Origin: an uncultured Gammaproteobacteria bacterium
Lineage (GTDB): Bacteria; Pseudomonadota; Gammaproteobacteria; PS1; Pseudothioglobaceae
Reading direction: 5' to 3'
Assembly (NCBI GenBank): GCA_937899995.1
Contig: CALCCK010000061.1
Coordinates: forward strand, 1 to 37,674
Length of the DNA stretch: 37,674 nucleotides
Shown: positions 1 through 431 of the stretch, piece by piece
Layout: the number at the start of each line of letters is the position of its first letter
Position numbering within the stretch: the stretch's first letter is position 1
The notes under the pieces: generated by a model
The model's database searches: none
What the model was told of the DNA's origin: nothing
Seen by the model: the letters and a program-made list of their open reading frames with translations, nothing else
Program-made: the position numbers and the translations under genes

Positions 1-142
1 GGCATATGCTAGTACGAGCAGCACATGCACGTGGAGTGATGGCTGCGCGATTAGACGGGTTGCTGTGTGCGAACAGTGGCAGTCATGTTATTAGCTTCCC
101 CTATTTTCTACTTGGAATTTTATTATCTTTTTTTTTTTTTTT
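1..142. other. Sequence of unknown provenance joined upstream of the adapter, ending in a T15 run (128-142)
   Basis: Lies on the far side of the adapter; adjacency to 201+ is not supported. Confidence 0.85.
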
Positions 143-200
143 AATGATACGGCGACCACCGAGATCTACACTCTTTCCCTACACGACGCTCTTCCGATCT
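143..200 (+). other. Illumina universal/P5 sequencing adapter embedded in the contig (artefact)
   Basis: Exact 58-nt AATGATACGGCGACCACCGAGATCTACACTCTTTCCCTACACGACGCTCTTCCGATCT; translates to the known contaminant peptide LMIRRPPRSTLFPYTTLFRS in the 6..431 ORF. Confidence 0.99.
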
Positions 201-431
201 ACCATTAATATTGGCGAGTCTAAAGAGCAGATTATAGAATTTATGAAAAAAGTAAAACTTGAATTGCCAATTATGATGGATGCTGATGGACAGGCGGTAA
301 AAGATTGGGGTGTATACGCTTATCCTTCTAGCTTTATTTTAGACAGAAAAGGCGTTACTCGTTACGCTTATCGCGGCGCTTTAGAGTGGGATTCACAGTT
401 AATTGTCAACACTATTAAAAAACTCCTTTGA
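201..431 (+). CDS. C-terminal fragment of a TlpA/redoxin-family thioredoxin-like protein (5' end lost at adapter junction)
   Basis: TINIGESKEQIIEFMKKVKLELPIMMDADGQAVKDWGVYAYPSSFILDRKGVTRYAYRGALEW: redoxin C-terminal half; only adapter-derived sequence lies N-terminal. Confidence 0.7.
   Translation, partial: TINIGESKEQIIEFMKKVKLELPIMMDADGQAVKDWGVYAYPSSFILDRKGVTRYAYRGALEWDSQLIVNTIKKLL

Follow-up and report, generated by a model that had tools for sequence, protein, structure and literature searches.

The first 200 bases of the contig analysed here, C61, carry an open reading frame that runs on into a redoxin-like coding sequence, which raises the question whether these bases belong to the genome at all and, if not, what they are and where the gene continues. 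The window (37,674 nucleotides) is the whole of C61, base 1 of the window being base 1 of the contig, in a genome of 1,243,108 bases in 78 contigs. As claimed in a preliminary description, the 58-nt Illumina P5/TruSeq universal adapter is found on the + strand at positions 143-200 (58/58, 0 mismatches), where chance would yield no exact match to a 58-mer; with up to 3 mismatches allowed, the window contained no second adapter match, and 100 shuffles contained none. The adapter lies 142 bases from the contig start, faces outward and is directly preceded by 15 T (T15, positions 128-142), which leaves 127 bases (positions 1-127) between the contig start and T15. The evidence set out below supports the view that window 1-200 does not stem from the organism and instead represents the outer part of a read that outran its short fragment and continued through the adapter and the flow-cell anchor into random base calls. 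The features are as follows:

1..127, - strand (strand of the original read): putative base calls past the template end, a non-genomic tail; it has only short AT-rich matches in the collections searched, and comparable tails occur at other ends
128..142, + strand: T15, interpreted as the T10 linker by which the P5 oligo is fixed to the flow cell, lengthened by further A calls in the read, given the T-run peak at 10-12 and the printed T10 primers
143..200, + strand: the Illumina P5/TruSeq universal adapter in full, matching at 58 of 58 nt
201..295, + strand: genomic, identical to positions 6981-7075 of contig C58, at its 3' end
201..431, + strand: genuine 3' part of the gene for a 414-aa protein, the remainder of which lies on C58 from 5967
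6..431, + strand: artificial 141-aa ORF, its N-terminus false up to base 200

The real gene extends across two contigs. The 3' end of C58 holds exactly the same 95 bp as window 201-295; next to them lie the P7 adapter, A14 and, outermost, noise. The true continuation upstream of position 201, as seen on C58 and in whole orthologues, differs from the sequence present on C61. Joined via the overlap, C58 and C61 encode a protein of 414 aa in which PF00578 matches residues 284-393 (E=2.1e-22) and WCRPC, a WCxxC motif, is encoded on C58; judged by sequence, the C-terminus, combining the fold match with this motif, is a thioredoxin-like domain of the TlpA/ResA type, and the N-terminus appears, by eye, signal-peptide-like. 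Eight relatives have the complete or almost complete gene in a single frame (57-75% identity; two of the eight are single-contig genomes), and in the four relatives examined for it, a gene for an HI0933-like flavoprotein adjoins downstream, as here. In a profile search the genuine part on C61 (201-428) matched the C-terminal half only of the AhpC-TSA/Redoxin profiles. The suggestion that the true N-terminal part lies upstream of 201 was therefore correct, but the accompanying statement that its sequence is missing was not: it is absent from C61 only and present on C58. The ORF 6..431 (141 aa) spans the tail, T15 and the adapter in frame and contains LMIRRPPRSTLFPYTTLFRS; this course, together with the whole gene in relatives, confirms that it is artificial and wrong at its N-terminus. 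That the adapter is read through in frame is unremarkable, because two of its three forward frames are open, one of them starting at the adapter's own ATG. The peptide RRPPRSTLFPYTTLFRS was not found in print in the literature searched.

The start of C61 is one of many such ends. A scan of the ends of all 78 contigs (n=156) revealed an adapter at 117 of them (46 P5 and 71 P7; five of these truncated by the contig end), all directed outward, so that the adapter contamination proposed earlier holds. Across the genome the P5 oligo matched 43 times and P7 70 times, always outward and, except for one case in C73, always at contig ends; all 53 readable copies of the P7 index read AGGCTT, and adapters plus the sequence outside them add up to 15,592 bases, or 1.25% of the assembly. 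The A run (here a T run) behind the full adapter, followed by non-genomic sequence, recurs across the genome: among the 112 ends with full adapters the T run measured 10-12 at 71 and at least 10 at 97, with the same peak, 10-12, behind P5 and behind P7, and of the 15 ends with a run shorter than 10 several are explained by the contig end or by one miscalled T. The tails are T-rich beside the T run and of mixed composition farther out. Since the P5 oligo sequence was found in none of 93 related genomes, its presence is a property of the library and not of the lineage. At the ends of C20, C22, C24 and C74, adapter-like pieces occur in the tails beyond the adapter, which suggests carry-over or signal from neighbouring clusters. 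The internal copy, in C73:9458-10096, shows the order genomic sequence, P5 adapter, A run, A/C-rich noise and about 500 bases of unrelated sequence, the latter with no Pfam match in the one frame tested, and looks like an adapter-bridged chimera. The last ~470 bases of C71 are G+C-rich and encode an IS3-type transposase OrfA (PF01527, E=1.4e-12), unlike the A+T-rich rest of the genome, as would be expected of foreign sequence or a recent insertion.

Untrimmed read-through of a short library insert almost certainly explains window 1-200. The read would have been longer than the library fragment from which it was taken and would have covered that fragment completely; in the orientation of C61, which shows its reverse complement, it would exit the genomic insert at position 201, cross the adapter from 200 to 143 and then the T10 linker of the P5 oligo (142 to 128, with a few additional A calls), and finish in unanchored base calls from 127 to 1. 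With the adapter left untrimmed, a de Bruijn assembly with k=127 would keep the last read wherever the real overlap was shorter than k, its entire tail thus becoming the contig end. Reads running out into the P5 side are read 2, which is the probable origin of the tail. The longest tail plus adapter in the genome measures 200 bases, at the start of C61 and at one other end, a maximum that would fit reads of about 300 bases. The link drawn earlier between the T run and the linker of the flow-cell oligo agrees with these run lengths, as immobilised P5 and P7 primers of this design are both printed with T10 (PMC11123353).

The contig ends themselves carry the mark of the assembly. At adapter-free ends seven pairs overlap by exactly 127 bp, the right end of C61 and the left end of C74 among them, and overlaps of this length are characteristic of de Bruijn assembly with k=127. 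At adapter-bearing ends 14 pairs overlap by 20-95 bp, all below k; therefore, the contigs broke off where genuine sequence overlapped by fewer than k bases, and the final read was retained together with its adapter. These 14 pairs look joinable after trimming. One and the same fragment behind both sides of every break was ruled out as a general rule, because eight of the 14 pairs are P7/P7; the C58/C61 pair (P7/P5, overlap 95 bp) would be compatible with one fragment of that length.

The source of the outermost bases was sought in the genome itself, 39 relatives, phages, plasmids and E. coli, where positions 1-142 yielded only short, mostly AT-rich matches; nor was the likeness of the C61 tail to adapters or to other tails above that of shuffles. 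The caution that bases 1-142 cannot be assumed to belong to this genome was justified: 1-127 has no notable match in these collections, and the true flank lies on C58. Whether noise or physical sequence, 1-127 is foreign to this genome at this place. Its base composition is the most even among 89 tails and its Markov score ranks 4-10 of 89, at the genome-like end, with models that separate noise from genome poorly for this tail; judged by composition alone, real DNA of an unsampled source would be compatible with these 127 bases, which counts against the noise reading. The most economical reading is that 1-127 represents noise and not a physical sequence; an origin from a neighbouring flow-cell cluster or from an unsampled organism is improbable. 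Still less credence is due to a chimeric library molecule, in which 1-127 would be real DNA of another source ligated or assembled beside the adapter: the even composition is in its favour, as is the adapter-bridged join to other sequence that C73 provides within the same assembly, but it leaves unexplained why 10 or more T adjoin the adapter on C61 and at most of the other ends; 1-127 likewise passes from T-rich to mixed composition, and the searches in the genome, its relatives, phages, plasmids and E. coli speak against it. That the adapter truly resides in the chromosome, e.g., of an engineered strain, has its presence in assembled sequence as the sole point in its favour and is practically inconceivable, given more than 100 copies at contig ends, of both P5 and P7 and with a sample index, and a gene that is whole in relatives; the true continuation through the C58 overlap refutes it.

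With untrimmed read-through as the explanation, the artefact is one already known, and C61 is a correct, ordinary case of the published adapter pile-up. According to the parts of Moeller et al. 2024 (PMC11536531) considered here, the universal adapter piles up at the contig ends of public microbial genomes together with contig breakage; as in our case, it faces outward and is associated with broken contigs, and trimming lets contigs merge, as it would be expected to do here, whereas that study searched MGnify catalogues with a 12-base universal part, and the T run and random tail seen here are not described in those parts of its text. Reads that pass the whole adapter were reported to show an A run and then seemingly random sequence (Turner 2014, PMC3906532), the same short-insert read-through that appears here in reverse complement; those were raw Nextera XT reads, whereas here the signal was carried into an assembly of a TruSeq-type library. 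The exact P5 58-mer also occurs in other species-representative genomes, and many among the matches listed are bins from DRR093003-DRR093005, of which DRR093004 is a metagenome of a sulfide deposit in the Southern Mariana Trough (PMC6946796); in 84 copies from other genomes the T run likewise peaks at 10-12. In IMG/VR viral contigs, T8 plus P5 was found in 42 stretches, most at the very end and a few farther in (e.g., L377 at 250).

At 42 contig ends of the present genome an ORF starts in the artefact and extends 50 codons or more into genuine sequence; at 56 ends a real frame runs outward into the artefact. Automatic annotation will therefore give many false protein ends, e.g., MIRRPPRSTLFPYTTLFRS. 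The finding is thus a matter of data quality and hygiene: genes at most contig ends of this genome carry false ends.
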